From: a virus
IMG/VR virus record: IMGVR_UViG_3300045256_000282
Coordinates: 62,001 to 126,000 of that record
Length of the DNA stretch: 64,000 bases
Reading direction: 5' to 3' (one strand)
Shown here: in pieces, positions 1,732-33,924 of the stretch
How the letters are laid out: every line of letters begins with the position of its first letter
Numbering within the stretch: the first letter of the stretch is position 1
Program-made: the position numbers and the translations under genes
Notes under the pieces: model-generated
Told to the model about the DNA's origin: nothing
The model's database searches: none
The model's input: only the letters and a program-made list of their open reading frames with translations

Positions 1732-2163
1732 CTATTTTCTTGATCGCAAATCCGCTATGTATTCACCATGGTGTGTCCCGTAACACGCACCCAGCGTATA
1801 CTCGTTCATTATGCTCTTAGGGCATCCGTCAGGGAGAGATGAGTTATCATGTCCCAACCCCATGGCGCAATGTCCAAGCTCGTGGTATATAAGCTCCTCA
1901 CGCGCTAGATCGTCAGACTGATCCCAGAACTCCTTATCGATCTCGATGTCACGTCTTCCGTCGCTGTAGGTTGTACACTGGCCAACTATCGGAGCCTTAG
2001 TATCTCCGAACACTGCGTTGATTCCAGCAGTATAAACTCCGATATCATTCTCGAATCTCTTCAGGTACGGACTGAGCACCTCATCTACGACCGCGACTGG
2101 TTTTGAGTCTCTCTTGCCGCAACCTGTCAGGATCATCATCGCTATCAGGATGATAACTCTCAT
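1732..2163 (-). CDS. Predicted lipoprotein zinc metalloprotease (zincin), copy A
   Basis: 143 residues from the ATG at 2163, which follows the upstream TAA by 1 nt; a longer in-frame start at 2211 would bury the signal peptide. A lipoprotein signal ends at the lipobox LTGC (Cys15). The core is HELGH at 94-98 with a third His at 105 (HExxH, six residues, His), followed by CPKSIM at 114-119, where Met119 may be the Met-turn of metzincin-like enzymes. Classical metzincins have one residue fewer before the third His. Likely a periplasmic or outer-membrane-anchored protease. A paralogue lies at 30529-31116. Substrate unknown. Confidence 0.7.
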   Translation of the reverse strand: MRVIILIAMMILTGCGKRDSKPVAVVDEVLSPYLKRFENDIGVYTAGINAVFGDTKAPIVGQCTTYSDGRRDIEIDKEFWDQSDDLAREELIYHELGHCAMGLGHDNSSLPDGCPKSIMNEYTLGACYGTHHGEYIADLRSRK

Positions 2164-2651: not shown

Positions 2652-3077
2652 TTAGAACTCGATGCCAAGGGAGACCATACCAGTCTTGTTGGTAAGCCCT
2701 TGCACGCCTAACAGAAGGTCAGAGTCTTCGCCTAGGCGTCGGCTGTAGCCAAGACCACCCACGGCTCCGTACTTTTGTTCTGCTTCGATAGCTGTTCCGT
2801 TACGCTGAGCGTCGATGCCGTTAGGACCGACACCACCCATGATCTGAACCAGGTTCATCTTGCGCTTGACCACGGTACGAACGACCGCGATCTTCTTCTC
2901 GACGACCTTCTCCACGACCTTAACAACTGGCTTCTCTACTACCACGGTCTTAACTACCGTGCGAACCTGACAAGATGCTGGCTTCTTCTTAGCAACCGGC
3001 TTCTTGTGGCAAGGGCATTGGTCTGCCATTGCGTTTACCGACATCAAACCTACTACTAAAGCGATGATCATTTTCAT
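2652..3077 (-). CDS. Exported protein with Val/Lys-rich repeat
   Basis: 141 residues from ATG 3077, with GGAGAA 8 nt upstream. An N-terminal signal peptide probably cleaves after AMA (about residue 18). A CPCHKKP segment and a Val/Lys/Glu repeat (VVEKPVVKVVEKVVEKK) follow at about 45-75, then a C-terminal part with alternating residues ending in LGIEF, a pattern seen at the ends of outer-membrane strands. Role unknown; one of several envelope-targeted products in this block. Confidence 0.65.
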   Translation of the reverse strand: MKMIIALVVGLMSVNAMADQCPCHKKPVAKKKPASCQVRTVVKTVVVEKPVVKVVEKVVEKKIAVVRTVVKRKMNLVQIMGGVGPNGIDAQRNGTAIEAEQKYGAVGGLGYSRRLGEDSDLLLGVQGLTNKTGMVSLGIEF

Positions 3078-3170: not shown

Positions 3171-4451
3171 TTAGTGTGTCAAGAGTGACTTACCAACGAC
3201 CGTTCTAGCGATCGTTGAGGATGACCATTCAAGGAGTAACGCGATCTGTGTGCGAGGACCTTGGAAGTAATCGATCTGGAAGGCATGACTACCTTGCGAC
3301 AAGAAGCCAGTGGCGGTCTTGGTCGAAGGAGCATGCAAACCGTCATGATTAAGCGCCACAGCTCCGTCAAGCTTAAGGATCGCACCATCGTCAGCCGTGA
3401 GGTAGAACGTGTAGGTGTCTGCCTTAGCAACCGCAAGCTTACCTACGCAGCGAAGTCCGTACCACTCTAGGTACTTGGTTCGAACAGAGCTGTCGTTGAT
3501 CTTAGGGAAGCCGCCAGCGTAGTTCGTGTCGCCAACGTCGAGTTGGTCCATGACGAAGGTATACACCGGAGTCATCGTGCTGAAATCAGGTACGTTAGAA
3601 GGCTTAGTAGCGATCAGGTCGTACATCTTGCAAGACAATCCAGCCTGAACCGTGGGAGCCTTAGGCTTCTTCACGCAATAGGCGTTGTCGTACTTGTCTT
3701 TCTTGAGCTGCTCGGTAGCCTTACATTTAGGCGTACCGCGGCTGCTGATTGGGGCATCGTACACACGGCCAGCAAGAAGCGCTGCACCAAGTTCAAGCTC
3801 GTTCTCAACGTCCACGTCAACCGACTGACTTACGTTGGTCGTCTGAGTGTTCGTCTGCGTATTAGTCTGAGACTGGTTGTTTGACTGGTCCTGGCTGTTG
3901 CTGTTCGTCGAGCTGTTGTTCGTCGAGTTGTTAGCAGAGTTAGACGCAGTCCCGCTGTTGCTCACCGTGCCGCTGTTGTTGGCGTTGGAGCTTGACGTGC
4001 TGTTACCAGCCGAAGATGTCGAGCTACCGCCAGCTCCGCCAGTTGCCGATGCGTTACCGCTCGAGATCTGGTTGCTGTTAGAAGCCGAACCACCCTGAGC
4101 ACTACCGCCCTGAGAAGTTGACGTGTTGCTGTTGCTGTTCGTAGCGCTTCCACCCTGTGAGGTTGAAGTTCCACCAGTAGCAGTGCTTGAACCACCTTGC
4201 GAGGTTGAGTTCGAGCTACCGCCAGAGGCAGAGTTGTCGTTGGTGCTGTTGCCGCTGTTGCTGATGCTTCCACCAGAACCCCCTGCACCTCCTGCTCCAC
4301 CAGCACCGCCAGCAGAACTATTGTTGATGTCGATGTTGATCGTTGGCGCAGGTAAACCTGATCCACCGCTGCCAGTTTCGTATACTACCTTTTCCTTACC
4401 ACAACCCGTAAGAGCCAAAGCCCCTGCGAGGATAAAAATACTCGTTTTCAT
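3171..4451 (-). CDS. PA14-domain lipoprotein with Ser/Asn/Gly linker
   Basis: 426 residues. A lipoprotein signal ends at LTGC (Cys17). Residues about 45-215 are low-complexity Ser/Asn/Gly/Thr, with repeats such as SQGGS and GGAGGAGG. The C-terminal 160 residues contain Cys pairs and a PA14-like region (YTFYLTADDGAILKLDG, then a QIDYFQG-type strand). PA14 domains usually bind glycans. The layout suggests a surface-anchored binding domain on a long flexible stalk, made inside the host and displayed on its envelope. It has its own promoter (4493-4521) and AAGGAGAA ribosome site, and is followed by a stop-proximal gap only. A role in superinfection exclusion or adhesion is inference. Confidence 0.75.
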   Translation of the reverse strand: MKTSIFILAGALALTGCGKEKVVYETGSGGSGLPAPTINIDINNSSAGGAGGAGGAGGSGGSISNSGNSTNDNSASGGSSNSTSQGGSSTATGGTSTSQGGSATNSNSNTSTSQGGSAQGGSASNSNQISSGNASATGGAGGSSTSSAGNSTSSSNANNSGTVSNSGTASNSANNSTNNSSTNSNSQDQSNNQSQTNTQTNTQTTNVSQSVDVDVENELELGAALLAGRVYDAPISSRGTPKCKATEQLKKDKYDNAYCVKKPKAPTVQAGLSCKMYDLIATKPSNVPDFSTMTPVYTFVMDQLDVGDTNYAGGFPKINDSSVRTKYLEWYGLRCVGKLAVAKADTYTFYLTADDGAILKLDGAVALNHDGLHAPSTKTATGFLSQGSHAFQIDYFQGPRTQIALLLEWSSSTIARTVVGKSLLTH

Positions 4452-14664: not shown

Positions 14665-14738
14665 TGGTTGCGGGACCCAGAATCGCACTGGGGTCTCGAG
14701 GTTATGAGCCTCGCGTGGTACTTCTCCACTATCCCGCT
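14665..14738 (-). tRNA. tRNA-Met (CAU), initiator-like
   Basis: 74 nt on the minus strand with encoded CCA. The acceptor pairs GCGGGA with TCCCGC, and position 1 (A) is opposite A72, a 1-72 mismatch as in bacterial initiators. Anticodon arm CGAGG-CTCATAA-CCTCG gives CAU. The end CCCGCAACCA matches the E. coli initiator. T loop TGCGATT carries G at 55, as in the other tRNA of this window. Against initiator status: A29 rather than three G-C pairs, and U11-A24 as in elongators. Lysidine-type tRNA-Ile2 is a further alternative. Confidence 0.85.
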
Positions 14739-21243: not shown

Positions 21244-21741
21244 TCACCAGGGAATCATTATTTGAAGTCCCAAGGTATCTCTTCCCTGGTTGGGTTTAAA
21301 GATACCGGCACTCGAGATGTGCTTGTATTGAAATCCGATAGATACTTTTGTTTTTTGATCCCTGATCCCAAAACCAAAGTCCTCAAAGAATTGCGCAGGT
21401 CCACCTAGAACCGTATCTGGGGAGCTGATGAGGCCAACACCCTGAAAGAAGTTGACGTACAGAGCGCCAGCCGTTGGCTCGACACCAATCGAGTAAGATC
21501 CAAAAGCACTGCTTTTAGCGCCATCTCGTCCAGAATGGTCAGACCAGAATCCGATCTCCCACTTCTTCTCAAGAAACGCAAGCTCGTCTTGGTAACCTAG
21601 AGATAAGCCCTTTTGAGCAGCCACGTCTTCGGTGTGAGCGTTCACAGAATACTTTAAAAACGTACCTTCCGCGCCAAGAGACCTGGCTGGCGAAAAGGCC
21701 ACTAGAGAAAACAAGCTAATAATAAGTAAAAACTTTTTCAC
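21244..21741 (-). CDS. PagL-like lipid A 3-O-deacylase (outer-membrane barrel)
   Basis: 165 residues with a signal peptide (cleavage near 23). PagL removes the 3-O acyl chain from lipid A in the outer membrane. The active-site region is recognisable: KHISSAGIFKPNQG, with His141 and Ser143 in the H-x-S arrangement, and an acidic residue (Asp155) 14 residues after the His, where Pseudomonas PagL has Glu. Alternating beta-barrel strands run throughout and it ends in a C-terminal Trp. Length matches PagL. The Asp for Glu change leaves activity open. Confidence 0.65.
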   Translation of the reverse strand: MKKFLLIISLFSLVAFSPARSLGAEGTFLKYSVNAHTEDVAAQKGLSLGYQDELAFLEKKWEIGFWSDHSGRDGAKSSAFGSYSIGVEPTAGALYVNFFQGVGLISSPDTVLGGPAQFFEDFGFGIRDQKTKVSIGFQYKHISSAGIFKPNQGRDTLGLQIMIPW

Positions 21742-25334: not shown

Positions 25335-27215
25335 ATGAGTCAAGCTTTCGTTTATGACGTAGCAAAAAACTCAGAAGATTCTCACCAGACAAGCCCCGCC
25401 TGGATGCTGACCTTTGTGCGTTGGGCAAACCGAGATCCTAATAACCACACAAACCCACAGGCCGCTGGTGGAGACCTTGCTGTAACAGACCCGCTTGTTG
25501 TTATCAACGACTGCGTATCCGTATCCGTCAACGTTTCAAAATCTTCTCACACACCCTCGATGTCGGCCATCTTAAGGGCTGGGGATATCAACTACCTAAC
25601 ATCCATAGCTCCCGGCGATTTCGTGTTCGTTAACATGGCGGACTGGGAAAAAGACATAGACGATGTTTACGAGAGAGCAAAGGCTTCTAAACCTATTAAC
25701 CAGTTTAAAGACGGTTTTAAAGGCTATTTTAAGGTTCAATCTGTCAGACGAATACTTACAGTTAATCCAGCTTCTGGATCTAAAGAGGTCATGTTTCAAG
25801 TAGAGGGCTTTGGCTTTACTGAATTTAATAACATGATTTACTTTAATCCTCACCTTATTCCACCCGGATCTGACAACAATCAGGCTCTTTTCTTGACCAA
25901 CTTAAGCAGGTATTGGCATAGTTTGTTTTCAACTAACGGACTCCCTACGGTGCAAGAGGTCATCAGGTTTTTCATTAAATCTTTTTTGGGAGAAGGTCAA
26001 CTAGCAGCAGGGATTAATAGGACGGTAAGGCAGTCTGGGGCAAACGCGGACTTCACTTCAAACACTCAATTTTATGTTCCCCAAGGCGTCGGCTCTTTGT
26101 TAGGTCAAGATAAGGCTAAGGCGGCAAAAGATCTCTATATCTACCTTATGGGGATACAACAGTATTCTTCGGGTAATACCAATACACCAGAACTTAGCCT
26201 ACTTCCTTCAAACCTAAACCCTGTACCTAAAGATGGAAGGTTTTTTTACACCAAACAGACATGTCAAGGAAGAGCTTTCGTAAAACCTGACTACTGGAAT
26301 CAAGTCCCTGTTTGGAGCGTAATGGAACAGTACTTAAATTCACCGATAAATGAGATGTACGTTTCTTATCGACCAGCCCCTAATGGTCTTGTGATGCCCA
26401 CCTTTACCATGAGACAGATGCCGTTTTCTAGCGAGAAGTATAAGGGTGTAGGAACAAAGTTTCTTAACCTACCACGCTGGAGGATTGATCCAGGCCTTAT
26501 CTATGACGTGAACATTGGAAGGGATGAGGCCGCAAGGATAAACTTTGTGCAAGTTTTTGGTATGATGACAGGTTCTGCTAGACCGGACCTTAGCATCGCG
26601 TACCCGATAGCAAAAGGCAATTACGTTTCTGACAATAAAGATATTAAAAGAAGTGGACTAAGACCGTACGTCATTACTTCCAACTTTGATCTCCCAGCAC
26701 TTCAATCGCAAACTAGCAATAAACAATATACCCGAGCCCTAGAATGGAAAAATCTTCTTGGGGATGCTCTTATTGGTGGCCATCTTAAGTTAAACGGCAC
26801 GATAACCACGGTAGGCATCGTTGACCCCATATCTCCAGGTGATAACCTAGAGTTGGGGGATACCGTGTATCACATCGAATCAGTTTCTCACTCAGCCACC
26901 TTAGCTCCAGGTGGTCAAAAGACTTTCCGCACTACCCTAGAACTTTCTCATGGCATCAGTAAGTTTTCTAATACTGAGAAAAAAGTTTATTCTCAGATGG
27001 TAAATAGTAAGATGGAGATTGAGTCGCGAGAAGATTACAATAACGGCGACGGTATGCTACCGGGAATTGTAGACTCTGAGACCGTATACCCAGATCCTTT
27101 CTTTGATATGGACGCTGCTTCAAAAAACAAAAGTTTTGATCTGCCACCCAAGTCTTTTGGTAAGCCGAAGAAACAGGGTAAGCTTAAGAAAAGATCTAAG
27201 AAGGTTGCAAAATGA
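25335..27215 (+). CDS. Baseplate hub-like protein
   Basis: 626 residues. The N-terminal part has the mixed beta pattern of gp27/gpD-type hub proteins (INDCVSVSVNVSKSSHTPSM, DFVFVNMADW), and the C-terminal third has LEWKNLLGDALIGGHLKLNG and a PGDNLELGDTVYHIESVSHS segment typical of hub and late-control D domains. It lies between the tape measure and spike and overlaps the spike start (ATGA). The hub joins tube and spike at the tail tip. Assignment rests on layout plus pattern. Confidence 0.6.
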   Translation: MSQAFVYDVAKNSEDSHQTSPAWMLTFVRWANRDPNNHTNPQAAGGDLAVTDPLVVINDCVSVSVNVSKSSHTPSMSAILRAGDINYLTSIAPGDFVFVNMADWEKDIDDVYERAKASKPINQFKDGFKGYFKVQSVRRILTVNPASGSKEVMFQVEGFGFTEFNNMIYFNPHLIPPGSDNNQALFLTNLSRYWHSLFSTNGLPTVQEVIRFFIKSFLGEGQLAAGINRTVRQSGANADFTSNTQFYVPQGVGSLLGQDKAKAAKDLYIYLMGIQQYSSGNTNTPELSLLPSNLNPVPKDGRFFYTKQTCQGRAFVKPDYWNQVPVWSVMEQYLNSPINEMYVSYRPAPNGLVMPTFTMRQMPFSSEKYKGVGTKFLNLPRWRIDPGLIYDVNIGRDEAARINFVQVFGMMTGSARPDLSIAYPIAKGNYVSDNKDIKRSGLRPYVITSNFDLPALQSQTSNKQYTRALEWKNLLGDALIGGHLKLNGTITTVGIVDPISPGDNLELGDTVYHIESVSHSATLAPGGQKTFRTTLELSHGISKFSNTEKKVYSQMVNSKMEIESREDYNNGDGMLPGIVDSETVYPDPFFDMDAASKNKSFDLPPKSFGKPKKQGKLKKRSKKVAK

Positions 27216-28267
27216 AGCTAAGGAACGGCACAGTATTGCCATCAGGCTTACTAGGAACAACCTCCTCAAGTCGAGTTACGGCTTTCAATAAGACGTATCA
27301 AAACCACGCGATCAGGGCTGGCATCGTGGTTAAGCGGTACGAGATAGAAGACAAGTCAAACGTATCAAAGCTTGCAATCGAATACGACGTGATGGTTATC
27401 GAGCAGGATGCTAACATGGGTTCCACACCCATCTTGTACAAGAATTGTCTTTCAGCAGACGGCTTGGGTGCCATCGCAGACTTCTTTGAAAAGAAGTTTA
27501 GGAAGCAGAAAAAAGCCGACAAGAAGACCAGAGGAATGGATTTCGTAGGCCAAGATGGCGCTATCGTGCTTTTGATGTGCCTAGACGGAGCCGGAGAAAA
27601 GGCGTTGATAGTTGGTGGACTAAAGCATCCAGAGAGAAAGACTAAGTTAGTAGGCAAGGAAGAGATTCTTGCTGGTGAGTACAACGGTGTAGCAATTACG
27701 GTTGGAGAAGATGGCTCTTGCAACCTTACCTTTAAGGGCGCAACCAATAATGACGGAACACCAAAGGATTCGTCTCAAGGCAACACTACGGTAGACATTG
27801 AGAAAGACGGAAGTTTTCAGGTTAAGAATAAGGGCGTTACCCAGCGCATGGAGAAGGCTGGAAAATATTCTCTTACCACGGAAGATTCTACAACCGTAAC
27901 CGCCAAAAAAGAGATCTCTTTAAACACCGAAGATAAGTTTTCCTTAAAAGCAAAGTCTGACGCAAGCATCGAATGTGTTAAGATGGCTCTAAAAGCATCG
28001 GGTTCTGCAAACCTAGAGATGCAAAGCCTTGACCTAATGTCGCAGGGTGAGGCAAACCTAAAGGCTCAGATGTTCAGCATCGAGGCTCAGAGCTTAGCAA
28101 AAGTTAAGGCTAGCACGATCGTACTTGACGGTTTTGTTAGCCTTGGGTCTGCTGGGGGTACTCCAGCACTAACCCTAAACACGCAGTTCCTAGGTGTCGG
28201 AAATCTCGGCATACCAGTAATCAGCACCGCGATAGGTCCGTTTTCAACGAAAGTGACTATAATATGA
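27212..28267 (+). CDS. Tail spike / membrane-puncturing protein (gp5/gpV-like)
   Basis: 351 residues. An OB-fold-like N-terminal half (VVKRYEIEDKSNVSKL, GEKALIVGGLKHP), then a long repetitive beta segment from about 190 (DIEKDGSFQVKNKG, STTVTAKKEISL, LKAKSDASIE, MQSLDLMSQGEANLKAQ) as in triple beta-helix spikes. Such trimers pierce the outer membrane. No lysozyme domain is visible. Overlaps hub and CPBP genes by ATGA. Confidence 0.7.
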   Translation: MKLRNGTVLPSGLLGTTSSSRVTAFNKTYQNHAIRAGIVVKRYEIEDKSNVSKLAIEYDVMVIEQDANMGSTPILYKNCLSADGLGAIADFFEKKFRKQKKADKKTRGMDFVGQDGAIVLLMCLDGAGEKALIVGGLKHPERKTKLVGKEEILAGEYNGVAITVGEDGSCNLTFKGATNNDGTPKDSSQGNTTVDIEKDGSFQVKNKGVTQRMEKAGKYSLTTEDSTTVTAKKEISLNTEDKFSLKAKSDASIECVKMALKASGSANLEMQSLDLMSQGEANLKAQMFSIEAQSLAKVKASTIVLDGFVSLGSAGGTPALTLNTQFLGVGNLGIPVISTAIGPFSTKVTII

Positions 28268-28767
28268 TGTTCCCGATCTTGTGGGCCTTGGCCGCAGTTT
28301 TTATCTTAGTTTCATCTCTCGAGTTTCCTGGGATCTGTAAGATTACCAAGAGCAAGGTCTTTGAGTTTGTAAGGTTCATGGCCTGGGTGACTCTTATTAG
28401 GGTAGGAGTCGCCTACCTTTCTGGAGCACATTATAAAGATCCAGACCCAAACTCCCCCATGAATACGATCAACCTCTTGTTCACCTTAGGGGTTTTTTGG
28501 GAGGATGTCTTTTTTACTCTACCCATACTTATAGCGGAGAAGATGGGCGCATCAAAAGTTACTAAGGGCATGATGATAGCGCTAAGCTCAATGGCGTTCG
28601 CTTCTGGCCACATAGCGTACGGTTTTCCGTGGTCCTTGATTACATTGGCCTATGTACCATTTGTCTCATACAAGTACGGAAGAAAACACGGTTTAGGAAC
28701 AGTGATGATTTGTCACATCCTTTATGACGTCATCACCTTGGCAAGCGTAAGATATCTGATGCCATGA
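28264..28767 (+). CDS. CPBP-type intramembrane protease-like protein
   Basis: 167 residues with four to five hydrophobic helices. The three CPBP (Abi/CAAX protease) motifs appear in order: WED at 79-81 (Glu80, with Asp in place of the second Glu and no downstream Arg), FASGH at 112-116, and HILYD at 151-155. These normally hold the catalytic Glu/His set of glutamic intramembrane proteases. It is coupled by ATGA to the spike gene and the next gene, so it is expressed with the baseplate. It may process a membrane or tail protein, or be a non-enzymatic relative. Confidence 0.65.
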   Translation: MMFPILWALAAVFILVSSLEFPGICKITKSKVFEFVRFMAWVTLIRVGVAYLSGAHYKDPDPNSPMNTINLLFTLGVFWEDVFFTLPILIAEKMGASKVTKGMMIALSSMAFASGHIAYGFPWSLITLAYVPFVSYKYGRKHGLGTVMICHILYDVITLASVRYLMP

Positions 28768-29043: not shown

Positions 29044-30429
29044 ATGCCGTTAAATCAAGATGACAGGATAGCATTTTCAAAGAAGATAGTTGAAGCGCCC
29101 TTCTTAATCGCCGCTATCAACAAGTCTAAGGAGACTATCCTTACCGAAAAAGAGAAGGCTCAGAAGCTTGACGACGGCCATAAGAACCTGGTCGACTCCA
29201 AGACAGTTCTGGTAAACGCATACCAGGGTGAGCTTATAAAGCTTGACGGTATTACAAGATCAACTCTTACGGAACAAGATCAGCAGGACGCCGCAAACTT
29301 CGTTCTTGGAAACAACCTTTATCCTAATAATCCACAAAATCCTCCGCCAAGCACCGCGCCATCGGTATGGACAAAAACTAAGCCTTACGCAAGAAACTTA
29401 GCGGTTGGCAAATTTTACAACGAAGCTTACGGTGCAACTGTTACGAAAGAAAGTGATGTCATCGCACTTGCCACAGCGGACGTTACAACTATACAGTCCA
29501 CATATGCTTTGATCGAGCAGGTTACCGGGCAAACCTGTACAACTCCAGGTGGAACATGCTCTATTCCAATGTACGTTACTCAACCTACGTGCGTGATGAA
29601 CGGAGGAGTTTGGACTCCTGGAGTCGACACCATCGCAACATATCCGGCTGTTCAAACAGCGCTTACCAATCTTATATCCAAGGTAAATGACATCAGAGCT
29701 TTCTTGGTATCGGAGGCGGCTACGATCTACACATCAGACTCTGACAATACCAGAAAGACCGAGAGCTTGGCGGCCCTAAACAATATAAACAACGTCACGA
29801 TACCCGCCATCGACGCATGGCTCGCACTTCCAAACTTTAACACAGCCCATGGACAGACAACCTGCTCAGGCTTTTTTGGATACAATCCTACCCTCTTAGC
29901 TCCTACCAAGTTAAGTACGGCCAACATAAACGCACTGCTAACCGCTCTTTCGAACAGGGGTACGTTTGCTACCACAAGATCAGGGCAGCTATCTGGATAT
30001 CTTGGTTCCATAACCCAAAACCTTTCTTCTGGGGACGTAACTGGTTCCGGTCTATATTTTGAGAGGTTCTCTTTTATCCAGCTTAGGCTGAACCTGTTGG
30101 GCGGATCTCTTATAACCTTAAAGGGTTATGAGCGTGCGAACAATGCTCAGGATGATCAAATTTCAAACATCAACGCCGCAAAAGCAACCTACGAACTTAT
30201 CCTAAGATGCTCTGCGTTCTCAGCACCCGCGACAGGAACCAAGTTTCTTAGCGTGAAAAGCACGACCGGACTATCTGCTGGGGACAACGTTTACGTTATA
30301 GCTGACGGTCAACCTGAGCTTACTAGGACCATCGAATCTGTTTCTGGGAATAGGATAGTCTTTGGCCAACCCATACCAGCAAACTACAAAGACAGCTCGT
30401 TTGGGCGAGTTTATAAGGATCTCACATGA
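29044..30429 (+). CDS. Virion structural protein, 461 aa
   Basis: Start at ATG 29044 with GAGGA upstream. N-terminal helical part, a Cys-rich insert near 160-190 (TCTTPGGTCSIPMYV and CVMNGGVWTPG), then helical again, ending in a beta domain (FLSVKSTTGLSAGDNVYVIAD). The Cys-insert pattern CxxPxYxxQxxCxxxGGxW occurs in other phage structural proteins I recall. Likely baseplate or tail-associated by context. Confidence 0.6.
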   Translation: MPLNQDDRIAFSKKIVEAPFLIAAINKSKETILTEKEKAQKLDDGHKNLVDSKTVLVNAYQGELIKLDGITRSTLTEQDQQDAANFVLGNNLYPNNPQNPPPSTAPSVWTKTKPYARNLAVGKFYNEAYGATVTKESDVIALATADVTTIQSTYALIEQVTGQTCTTPGGTCSIPMYVTQPTCVMNGGVWTPGVDTIATYPAVQTALTNLISKVNDIRAFLVSEAATIYTSDSDNTRKTESLAALNNINNVTIPAIDAWLALPNFNTAHGQTTCSGFFGYNPTLLAPTKLSTANINALLTALSNRGTFATTRSGQLSGYLGSITQNLSSGDVTGSGLYFERFSFIQLRLNLLGGSLITLKGYERANNAQDDQISNINAAKATYELILRCSAFSAPATGTKFLSVKSTTGLSAGDNVYVIADGQPELTRTIESVSGNRIVFGQPIPANYKDSSFGRVYKDLT

Positions 30430-30542
30430 ATTTAGTTGACCTTTTTGTTCAATCTATGAAGATAGTTCTTGCTATGACCGTAGTTTCGGCGTTAGCTGGA
30501 ATCGTATTAGGTTTTGTTTTGATACACTTCACTCAAGACTAA
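30426..30542 (+). CDS. Small membrane peptide, 38 aa
   Basis: ATG 30426 overlaps the stop of the structural gene (ATGA). One transmembrane helix (VLAMTVVSALAGIVLGFVLI). Ends overlapping the convergent zincin gene. Role unknown. Confidence 0.6.
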   Translation: MNLVDLFVQSMKIVLAMTVVSALAGIVLGFVLIHFTQD

Positions 30543-31116
30543 GTTCGCAGCCGTCTAGCATCTCTTGCAGGTAATGGTCCAGATACTTCTTGATGCAGTA
30601 CTCGCTTGGCATCCTTGAGTGCATGATAGATCTTGGGCATTTGTCTTCAAAGTAGCCGTTTTCTAAAAGATCCTTAGCACCCCATTTTGAATTGGGCATC
30701 TCTAGGCCTTCTTTGGATTCTGGGTAGGTGCCCTTGTCGTAAGTATGGTCCCTGTTACATATGCAGTGACCTGCTTCGTGAAAAACCAGAATTTCTCTGA
30801 CCAAGTCGCTAGAGTGTTCCCAATATAGGGTGTCTACCTCTATCTCAGTACCGCTATCCTCTAGTTTTGAGCACAAACCCACGATGCTGCCTTCTTTGCC
30901 AATCTCCGATTTCCCGGCGGTCAACCCCTCAAATAGGTTTGGGTACTTTTTGTCAAAATGTTCTTCGACCCTTTTCTTGTAATCTAACAGATAAAAATGG
31001 ATATCCTTATCTATGTTATTGAATTTCTTAGATGTTTTGTTAAAATTTGAAGTAACACAGGAAGATACTGCCGATACAAAAAGGATAAAACTCAATAAGA
31101 TCTTATACTTAGTCAT
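30529..31116 (-). CDS. Predicted lipoprotein zinc metalloprotease (zincin), copy B
   Basis: 195 residues, minus strand inside the plus-strand tail operon. Lipoprotein signal with lipobox VSSC (Cys20). Catalytic-type motif HEAGH at 113-117 with a third His at 124, then CPRSIM at 160-165. The stretch from about 79 to 125 aligns with copy A at 1732-2163: VG.C, then IE.D...W..S.DL.RE.L..HE.GHC. A larger insert separates the third His from the Met element. Probably anchored in the host envelope and acting on periplasmic or surface proteins. Confidence 0.7.
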   Translation of the reverse strand: MTKYKILLSFILFVSAVSSCVTSNFNKTSKKFNNIDKDIHFYLLDYKKRVEEHFDKKYPNLFEGLTAGKSEIGKEGSIVGLCSKLEDSGTEIEVDTLYWEHSSDLVREILVFHEAGHCICNRDHTYDKGTYPESKEGLEMPNSKWGAKDLLENGYFEDKCPRSIMHSRMPSEYCIKKYLDHYLQEMLDGCELSLE

Positions 31117-31147: not shown

Positions 31148-31258
31148 TTAGGTTTCCCTTAAAGGCTTTTTCCTAAATCCTAGGATATGACCCACAAGGA
31201 GGCCAGCTAGGAAAGAAAACACTGATATTATGATCATTAGTTGGCTTGCTTCTTTCAT
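31148..31258 (-). CDS. Small membrane peptide, 36 aa
   Basis: Start ATG 31258; one transmembrane helix (LMIIISVFSFLAGLLVGHI) and basic tail (RKKPLRE). It lies directly upstream of zincin copy B on the same strand, so the two form a small cassette opposed to the late operon. Confidence 0.55.
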   Translation of the reverse strand: MKEASQLMIIISVFSFLAGLLVGHILGFRKKPLRET

Positions 31259-31272
31259 TTTGACACCAGCAC

Positions 31273-31282
31273 AATCTTGAAG
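31273..31282 (+). promoter_or_regulatory. AATCTT late-type element
   Basis: AATCTTGAAG, followed by GTAGGATAT, 30 nt before the ATG at 31303. TTGACA lies at 31259-31264, giving a possible TTGACA-18-TAGGAT sigma70 match as an alternative reading. Confidence 0.45.
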
Positions 31283-31302
31283 GTAGGATATCACGGAGTT
31301 AT

Positions 31303-33924
31303 ATGGCATTTAATTCATCGGACCCCTTCGGGCTAGGCAAACAGATTGAAGACGTAGGCAGGTCCATATCCGATGGCCTTAAGCAGCTTACCCAAGAAAT
31401 TCAGGCCGGTAGCGGCTCGGCTTCCCCTGGACCATGGACAGAGTTTAAGGCCTCAAAAGAGGGTATGTTCCCATCCGTCCAGATCGACGGCGATCGTTGG
31501 AACCAACTTTACCCTTACCGGCTCGTTGTGTGGGACGCCGAACTAAAAAAGATCGTAGGCGCTGGTTTTGGTCAGTCTTTAAAAGAAAAGTATCAAAAGA
31601 TAAGCCCAGACTCTTACAGGATAAGCTTTGAGCCTATGGCTAGCGCCTGGGAGTTTAGGCTTCCAATAACACCTCAGCAATATTCCGTCTCTACTCCATT
31701 CACAGCCGTTACAACTGCTACTCAGCGCGGAATAGTTGAAGAGCACGGCGGTATCAAGTTTAAGATGATCAACTGCTCTGGGAGCCTTGGTGTTTGGGCT
31801 AACAGAAAAAGCCTAAACGGTAAACCCGAAAATCCCTCGATCCTCACGACCCTTTTTTCTGGAACCATCGAAGCGTTTCAGGGGGTAACTAATCAGATCG
31901 ATAGGACCATCAGATCCATCACATCGAATCACCCAGCTCCCAAGCCAACAGAAAAAAACCCAGAAGGATCAGACCTCGAGTCAACAGGGTATTACCAGAT
32001 GCTTCTTCTGGATCAGTTTTTGGAGCAATACTCTGAGTTTAAGAAACAACCTTTTGCAAAAGATTGGAGACTTGTTCTTGATATCCCAAAAGAGAACCAG
32101 TCTTTCATTGTCACTCCTGTTCAGTTTACGTACAGCAAGTCTGCCGACTCTCCAAACGAAACCAAGTTTAACTTTCAGCTAAAAGCTTGGCGACGGATTG
32201 ACTTAGCTGAAAAGGTTGCTCCTGCTACCTTTGACGACCTCACGCTTACCCCAGACCTTCTTAGAAAAGTAATAACTGCTGTTGAAGAAGCTCGAAGAAC
32301 TATCGGCGCTTCCTATAACCTGATCAAGGCTGTTAGGTCAGATTTTCAAACTCCTTTCAACATCCTTAGAGAGATCTCATTATTTGCAAAAGATGCTGCA
32401 GGACTACCGGCAGCAGTTATTGATCTGCCAAGACAGATAATTCAAGATGCAAAATCGTCTTTAAAAGATTCGATGAACAATCTTGATGATGCCTCTATTC
32501 AGCTTAATACGGGAACTTCAAAATCCTTAAAAAGCAGCCTTGCTACGGTAAAATCAACCTTTTCTTCAAGAGAAGGTATCTCCGACGCAGCGGTAACCTC
32601 CGGCCAAGTGGGCCTTTCTGCTAAGACAGCTCTCGATACTGATCCGTCTATCGATATCTTTAATAACCCAGAACAAAACTTTGACCTGTTTAATCTTTTA
32701 AGCGTTACAGACGTAAACTTCAACTTTGCTCAACAAGAAAGAATAGACAGTGATCTTGAGACGATACGAAACACTACGGTGGACGATCTTATAACTAAGC
32801 GAACTCAACTTTTAGAGCTTGCTCTTCAAATATCCAACGCTTTTGGTGCAGGAAGTCAGGATTACTCTGACATCTACGATACTCCGACTCCGTACAAAAG
32901 AATTCAACAGATGACGATTGATGAGTTTAGTATTCTAAAAAGCATCTACGATTCTATACAAGCGCTAGATTCTATAACGTCAACCAACGAGCTTGATCAG
33001 GGTAAGAACGACAGCGCTTTTGAGTATGTAGGAAGCTTGGCTTCAGATTCTAACATACCCTTTGAAAACAGCTTATCTAAGATACGAGTTCCAGTTCCGT
33101 TTGGGTTAAACATGGAACAAATGGCCGCAAGGTTTCTTGGCAATCCTGAGAGATGGATCGAGATAGCAACTCTTAACGCCATGAGAAGCCCGTACATTGA
33201 CGAAGATGGTTTCTTTTACAACTTACTTTCAAATGCAGACGGAAGACAGTTTAACGTAGAAACTAATCAAAACCTTTATGTTGGACAAAAGATCGTTCTA
33301 TCAAGTCTAACCCAACCTCAGACTACTCGAAGAATCATCAACATTGAGCAGATCAGTCCGACCAACTTTCTTATCACCGCCGATGGCCTTGACAACCTCG
33401 ATGTCTTCACGACCAATGATAAGGCCAAGATGAGGGCTTACTTGCCAGGTACGGTTAACAGTCAGGATCAGATCTACATCCCTTCTGAACAAGATGTGAC
33501 CGAGACGTTTTTAAGCAGACCCGTCCCCGCAACCAAGGGTGACCCCCTTGTAGGGTTATCAAAGATTGACTGGCTTTTGACCGAATCCGGCGACATTGCT
33601 ACGGACGCTTACGGGGATTTTAGGTTAGCCTTTGGTATCTCAAATCTTATCCAGGCACTTAAGATGAAGTTTTCAACCCCACCAAACAGGTTGCTAACCC
33701 ACCCTGGATATGGTGCCGGGTTAACCCCAGGCATATCCACTGCCGATCTTAGAGATTCTGATGTGATTCGTCAGATAATCAAGTCTATTCAAAATGATCC
33801 AAGGTACGGTGATATCATAAGCTTAAATATCGATAGGGTTGGACCTAAGTACTCCATATCCTTATCGGTTACGTTGGCTGATGGAAGCGGCGTCTTTCCG
33901 ATCAACTTCGTACTAAACGGATAG
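31303..33924 (+). CDS. Baseplate wedge protein: LysM/gp53-like plus gp25-like fusion
   Basis: 873 residues. A beta-rich N-terminal region of about 300 residues is followed by a helical middle. Near 600-640 a LysM-like piece appears (FGLNMEQMAARFLGNPERW, then IATLNAM), as in gp53-type baseplate proteins. The last 110 residues have the gp25/W layout (RLLTHPGYGAGLTPG, LRDSDVIRQIIKSIQNDPR, then two strands). In T4 gp53 and gp25 are separate wedge proteins; here both appear on one chain. Confidence 0.7.
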   Translation: MAFNSSDPFGLGKQIEDVGRSISDGLKQLTQEIQAGSGSASPGPWTEFKASKEGMFPSVQIDGDRWNQLYPYRLVVWDAELKKIVGAGFGQSLKEKYQKISPDSYRISFEPMASAWEFRLPITPQQYSVSTPFTAVTTATQRGIVEEHGGIKFKMINCSGSLGVWANRKSLNGKPENPSILTTLFSGTIEAFQGVTNQIDRTIRSITSNHPAPKPTEKNPEGSDLESTGYYQMLLLDQFLEQYSEFKKQPFAKDWRLVLDIPKENQSFIVTPVQFTYSKSADSPNETKFNFQLKAWRRIDLAEKVAPATFDDLTLTPDLLRKVITAVEEARRTIGASYNLIKAVRSDFQTPFNILREISLFAKDAAGLPAAVIDLPRQIIQDAKSSLKDSMNNLDDASIQLNTGTSKSLKSSLATVKSTFSSREGISDAAVTSGQVGLSAKTALDTDPSIDIFNNPEQNFDLFNLLSVTDVNFNFAQQERIDSDLETIRNTTVDDLITKRTQLLELALQISNAFGAGSQDYSDIYDTPTPYKRIQQMTIDEFSILKSIYDSIQALDSITSTNELDQGKNDSAFEYVGSLASDSNIPFENSLSKIRVPVPFGLNMEQMAARFLGNPERWIEIATLNAMRSPYIDEDGFFYNLLSNADGRQFNVETNQNLYVGQKIVLSSLTQPQTTRRIINIEQISPTNFLITADGLDNLDVFTTNDKAKMRAYLPGTVNSQDQIYIPSEQDVTETFLSRPVPATKGDPLVGLSKIDWLLTESGDIATDAYGDFRLAFGISNLIQALKMKFSTPPNRLLTHPGYGAGLTPGISTADLRDSDVIRQIIKSIQNDPRYGDIISLNIDRVGPKYSISLSVTLADGSGVFPINFVLNG

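Follow-up and report, generated by a model that had tools for sequence, protein, structure and literature searches.

Two short open reading frames in a phage genome encode predicted lipoproteins with a zinc-protease-like signature, in which HExxH is followed by six residues and a third histidine, and this locus raises the question of what kind of protein these are and where they would act. The window, the whole stretch of 64,000 nucleotides analysed here, covers positions 62001-126000 of a 149,068-base IMG/VR virus record. Copy A (1732..2163, ATG at 2163, stop codon included) encodes a lipoprotein zincin of 143 aa and copy B (30529..31116, ATG at 31116, stop codon included) one of 195 aa; both lie on the minus strand, a detail left unstated in the earlier note on this DNA. 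Our reading is that A and B, members of an unnamed and metzincin-like family, are probably small zinc endopeptidases anchored in the host envelope, a judgement that concerns identity and location, and not role.

Both proteins carry the bacterial-lipoprotein feature of an N-terminal signal and a lipobox cysteine, read from the sequence as LTGC in A (Cys15; 2119..2130, minus strand), in a column that is Cys in 97 of 102 family members, and as VSSC in B (Cys20; 31057..31068, minus). The zinc motif of copy A, HELGHCAMGLGH, spans residues 94-105 (1849..1884, minus) and divides as HELGHC-AMGLG-H, with H94, E95, H98 and H105 as the key positions, while that of copy B, HEAGHCICNRDH, spans residues 113-124 (30745..30780, minus) and divides as HEAGHC-ICNRD-H (H113, E114, H117 and H124). 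A putative Met-turn, SIM, is found at residues 117-119 of A (1807..1815, minus) and 163-165 of B (30622..30630, minus), and the stretch from the third His to SIM (30631..30744 in B, minus) is longer in B-type members. Upstream, Cys63 of A (1975..1977, minus) has its counterpart in Cys82 of B (30871..30873, minus; invariant in A3). The features first read from the letters, namely a lipobox in each copy, HE.GHC, a third His at +7 and CP[KR]SIM (CPKSIM in A, CPRSIM in B), are all present, as is the common upstream pattern VG.C...IE.D...W..S.DL.RE.L.

The earlier note had staked its proposal on homology between the copies, and they are indeed true homologues, aligning by BLASTP over 113 columns with 29% identity (53.9 bits, E 2e-14). 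Its claim of two copies in one phage also held, as a search of the whole 149,068-base record returned A and B and no third copy. A recent duplication giving rise to A and B was ruled out, since they fall in different phage branches of a tree that is quick, with long branches, and in which the exact position of B is unsure. The phage represented by L047 and L054 also has two family members, one of them in the same genomic niche as B, which likewise argues that the A/B pair is no new duplication. Two family matches occur in nine of 50 viral records, the second being weak in two (G159 and G173). The view of A and B as distantly related paralogues is thus supported.

The extent of the family was larger than the six close viral relatives from the first searches would indicate, with later searches yielding 90 relatives in IMG/VR and 409 in GTDB contigs, the best 80 of each being retained. 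The family numbers in the hundreds, and is distributed over uncultured phages, Bacteroidota (mainly Saprospiraceae) and Bdellovibrionota; the chromosomal relatives among the best 80 of 409 are mostly from Saprospiraceae and other Bacteroidota, with some from Bdellovibrionota. When genomes were sampled evenly, with the queried genome itself counted, a member was present in 42 of 144 Bdellovibrionota and 4 of 148 Bacteroidota genomes. The designation of these proteins as phage zincins is therefore correct insofar as phages carry them, but with hundreds of chromosomal relatives they are not phage-specific. Among INPHARED phages, tblastn with A and B found no convincing relative, PHROGs and NCBIfam contained no family matching either copy, and the PDB searched with single sequences gave chance matches only. 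A description of HExxH-x6-H was not found in the open-access literature, where the one match was a single mention in a review of metzincins in the nervous system. The family has no name and, as far as the searched sources show, has apparently not been described.

In an alignment of 102 members, H94, E95, G97, H98, H105 and M119 are invariant. Because this alignment had been chosen with the third His in mind, a recount was made on segments selected by HExGH and the upstream pattern only, and here the third His stands at +7 (x6 spacing) in 159 of 160 segments, and one residue later in the lone exception, with the downstream Met present in all 160. This spacing is far above chance. Metzincins have a Gly at the position three before the third His; in the recount set, 112 of 159 segments carry G, N or D here, residues that suit a tight turn. 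The same conservation bears on whether A and B might be inactive or accessory zincin-like lipoproteins that bind instead of cutting. Room for such a protein exists in that the enzyme activity of A and B is deduced from sequence, but the catalytic and zinc residues, Glu included, are invariant across very diverged sequences, and we consider it scarcely credible that the fold has been retained without its chemistry. Zinc binding and proteolysis by both copies would be the expected consequence of these residues.

An automatic annotation would have suggested a different identity. Copy A scores 27.6 bits against Pfam PF18894 (PhageMetallopep), above the cut-off of 23.7, whereas copy B scores 15.6, below it, and 95 of the 102 family members match this profile weakly. 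Such matches, together with the presence of SPRTN and selecase among the structural matches of copy A, would be compatible with a gluzincin or a cytosolic zincin of the SprT/PF18894 type, where a downstream Glu or Asp serves as the third zinc ligand and the His at +7 would be a coincidence. However, the PF18894 match of A ends just after HExxH, and the strong members of PF18894 (84-103 bits, from Bacteroidota genomes) have HELxH, with neither a lipobox nor S-I-M nor a His at +7; nearly all of those seen continue after the motif as HELxH[IV]...KSKTQEWK, unlike A and B. Membership in PF18894 was rejected on these grounds, and because its strong members differ after HExxH, the automatic label for A would mislead. 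Given also that the His at +7 is kept in 159 of the 160 segments and that two members have the canonical HExxHxxGxxH, an incidental third His seems most unlikely.

With regard to fold, an AlphaFold2 model of copy A built from the 102-row alignment (pLDDT 94.9, pTM 0.85) has an active-site helix at residues 85-101 that stops just before the turn and H105. The model of copy B (pLDDT 84.4) has its elements in the same order as A, with a low-confidence insert between the third His and the Met (pLDDT below 50 at residues 134-141). Foldseek searches of the PDB with copy A returned the ECX metzincin protease (2.5e-4) and snapalysin (about 1.4e-3), followed by selecase and SPRTN, such that the best matches are metzincins (2.5e-4 to 2.7e-3), with TM-scores of 0.45-0.5; copy B alone gave no fold match in the PDB below 1e-3. 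Against viral models, the best matches were phage proteins without a name and a metalloprotease from an entomopoxvirus. Searched against the PDB, the family profile matches adamalysin/atrolysin, pairing HELGHC-vlgrdH with HELGH-NLGMEH across one gap and setting the family Met on the Met of the adamalysin Met-turn, but at E 0.06-0.3, which is not significant alone. Profile and fold scores are suggestive of metzincin kinship without being conclusive.

The strongest link to the metzincins comes from sequences within the family itself. The natural INTERMEDIATES, G198b (in L186) and L071, carry the canonical HExxHxxGxxH as HELGHTFGLKH and HELGHALGLDH, respectively, with one residue after HExxH missing, and score 76 and 56 bits against the family profile. 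Both lack the two cysteines, the upstream Cys included. The L071 ORF continues in frame into a thioredoxin-like domain with CPPC, as read by eye. Members of canonical length inside the family place the stretched motif one residue away from a metzincin-type site. The metzincin motif HExxHxxGxxH/D is not that of A or B, and the family is thus best described, from its sequences, as metzincin-like with a stretched motif, the x6 spacing departing from the metzincin definition. The Met downstream of the third His, Met119, would form the Met-turn. The proposal of a distinct zincin family was borne out, but not as a lineage separate from metzincins, as the fold matches, the adamalysin profile alignment and the two canonical members argue for a relationship.

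The cysteines provide information on where these proteins would function. Of the 102 aligned members, 100 have both Cys63 and Cys99 and one has neither, and a second pair flanking S-I-M is complete in 86 sequences, missing altogether in 58 and represented by a single Cys in five. Such pairwise gain and loss, in raw counts uncorrected for kinship, points to disulfides and an oxidising compartment for the family, matching the lipobox-like site found by pattern in 84 of 102 members. The host-envelope location suggested in the earlier note is therefore likely on the basis of lipoboxes and co-varying Cys pairs, and A and B would be lipidated and membrane-anchored.

The genomic settings of the two copies differ. 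Copy A belongs to a run of genes on the minus strand, along with an exported protein that has a C-terminal beta-rich domain (2652..3077, minus) and a lipoprotein with a PA14 domain (3171..4451, minus; PF07691, 48.7 bits). The former has no Pfam or PHROG match and has homologues near other family genes; this unnamed exported family (L002, L004, L005, L033, L040, L045 and L047), which is often found beside a lipoprotein, is characterised by a middle part that is charged or rich in proline and by a C-terminal beta domain with Phe as its last residue. Several other phages carry, close to family genes, either a collagen-like lipoprotein or a relative of the exported protein. In six B-type phage records, no match to the window sequence of this exported neighbour was found, though clustering had identified a distant relative in one of these six (L047/L181). 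Since the neighbours of A differ between phages, it has no single fixed partner.

In the case of copy B, the surroundings are those of a virion gene cluster. The gene lies antisense between BP461 (29044..30429, plus), which belongs to a tail/baseplate gene run and has no Pfam match, and the baseplate gene BP873 (31303..33924, plus; phrog_975 baseplate, E 2.5e-15), and the same niche is occupied by B-type genes in seven phage contigs (the window, L018, L026, L048, L049, the phage of L054, and L063). A and B are consequently not on opposite sides of the tail operon, as had been claimed, but B lies inside it. The antisense position suggests that B is expressed separately from the virion genes, and both copies may be expressed apart from those for virion structure. 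BP873 was not found in 144 Bdellovibrionota genomes, which settles nothing on the host. A tail-region protein (25335-27215) has Myxococcus phage Mx1 as its only INPHARED match, at 30.6%. Two tRNA genes are found in the window, tRNA-Ile (anticodon tat; 553-629, minus) and tRNA-Met (cat; 14665-14738, minus), and an ORF elsewhere in the same phage (L190:4689-6455, plus) has a start that is chaperonin-like by eye.

Copy B is also flanked by single-helix small ORFs, one encoding a 38-aa membrane peptide (30426..30542, plus) that shares 14 nt with the 3' end of B, and the other a 53-aa membrane protein upstream of B (31148..31309, minus). This arrangement could be taken to indicate an outer-membrane lipoprotein protease that acts at the lysis stage and opens the envelope together with the small membrane proteins, an interpretation with some parallel in Listeria, where a secreted metzincin of phage origin, paired with a lipoprotein, heightens sensitivity to phage lysis (PMC8235301). 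The small ORFs, however, are not kept across B-type loci, none of the few proteins scanned was assigned to a holin, endolysin or spanin family, and chromosomal relatives are common in bacteria, making a protease dedicated to lysis unlikely.

Other genes of the phage encode products that may act at the envelope. For instance, the window contains a PagL-type lipid A deacylase (21244-21741, minus; PF09411, 44.5 bits) and a CAAX/Rce1-like intramembrane protease (28264-28767, plus; PF02517, 26.8 bits), the latter two genes before BP461 and with homologues near B-type genes in L018 and L048, while the same phage encodes, outside the window, an exported subtilase (PF00082; L193:6551-7339, minus) and an exported Clp-type protease (PF00574; L194:5780-6766, minus). 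Together with the PA14 lipoprotein, this collection of genes makes envelope modification a theme of the phage.

The chromosomal relatives have a setting of their own. A FecR-type anti-sigma gene follows the zincin in 34 of 77 chromosomal loci, and an ECF sigma gene precedes it in 27 of those 34; these 77 are the best-scoring loci, and the proportion does not extend to the whole family. In L086, the one locus tested, a TonB-dependent receptor gene is next. The resulting Saprospiraceae operon of ECF sigma, zincin, FecR anti-sigma and TonB receptor genes spans L086:3363-8092, with others in L085-L164, and in L130 the sigma factor and zincin read as one open frame. Proteolysis is known to control anti-sigma factors of the FecR/Fec type (PMC8144685, PMC11637429), which would make the zincin a candidate partner of FecR. 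By extension, A and B could be envelope-signalling proteases that cut an anti-sigma factor or receptor and alter host gene expression. In the phage loci displayed, however, neither sigma nor FecR genes lie beside the zincin, and the bacterial zincin might itself be under regulation instead of exerting it, so that we regard signalling by the phage copies as decidedly unlikely. A more elaborate version is a long shot: the Saprospiraceae zincin would be a dedicated periplasmic protease of Fec signalling, two forms of which were taken by large phages for envelope control, and its stretched, disulfide-braced zinc site would switch upon disulfide reduction.

Taking A and B as envelope-anchored zinc endopeptidases, the likeliest role is cleavage of a host envelope protein during infection. 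The infected cell would express the proteins separately from virion structural genes and export them, and a lipid modification would attach them to the host envelope. The active-site helix would bear HExxH, followed before the turn by one residue more than in classical metzincins, this extra position usually beginning with a Cys bonded to a Cys of an upstream strand, and then by the third His ligand, with the invariant Met of S-I-M forming the floor of the zinc site. Cleavage may lead to a remodelled infected-cell surface, through receptor or envelope changes, phage exclusion, or weakening before lysis. As to which of these applies, surface remodelling or exclusion is a reasonable guess that falls somewhat short of even, lysis an outside guess, and action on envelope signalling a fainter one.

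The metzincin motif has been seen as a fixed ruler, yet a family spread over two bacterial phyla and phages keeps a form one residue longer, and its natural relatives of canonical length allow the tolerance of a zinc site for an insertion to be tested directly. In addition, a misleading database label is corrected. Phages whose hosts have been little studied gain a candidate protease of the envelope, and for Bacteroidota the family suggests a protease that might partner FecR-type signalling.

Among known systems, the metzincins (adamalysin, snapalysin, the ECX protease, matrixin and astacin) share with the family an HExxH helix and a third His after a turn, and the astacin Met-turn, SIMHY, resembles the S-I-M of the family (PMC9848320). 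The family differs in having x6 and not x5 between the second and third His, a mature domain of about 120 residues, a predicted lipid anchor, and Cys63/Cys99 at the active-site helix. The PF18894 proteins are linked to copy A by the segment up to HExxH through which it passes the gathering score. Archaemetzincin, with the motif HEXXHXXGXXHCX4CXMX17CXXC (PMC3427221), resembles the family in the cysteines around its zinc site and in its Met-turn, but has the canonical x5 spacing and cysteines at other positions, and its NCBIfam model scores 13.5 against a cut-off of 145. A further parallel is the Listeria phage-derived metzincin Mtz, which is paired with the lipoprotein Tim and alters the wall and aids lysis (PMC8235301). 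Like the predicted A and B, Mtz is an exported metzincin of phage origin at the bacterial envelope, but it has the canonical HEXXHXXGXXH/D, is secreted rather than a lipoprotein, and functions in a Gram-positive setting with a TIMP-like substrate partner. Mtz is a precedent for the kind of effect that A and B may have on their host, rather than evidence for it.
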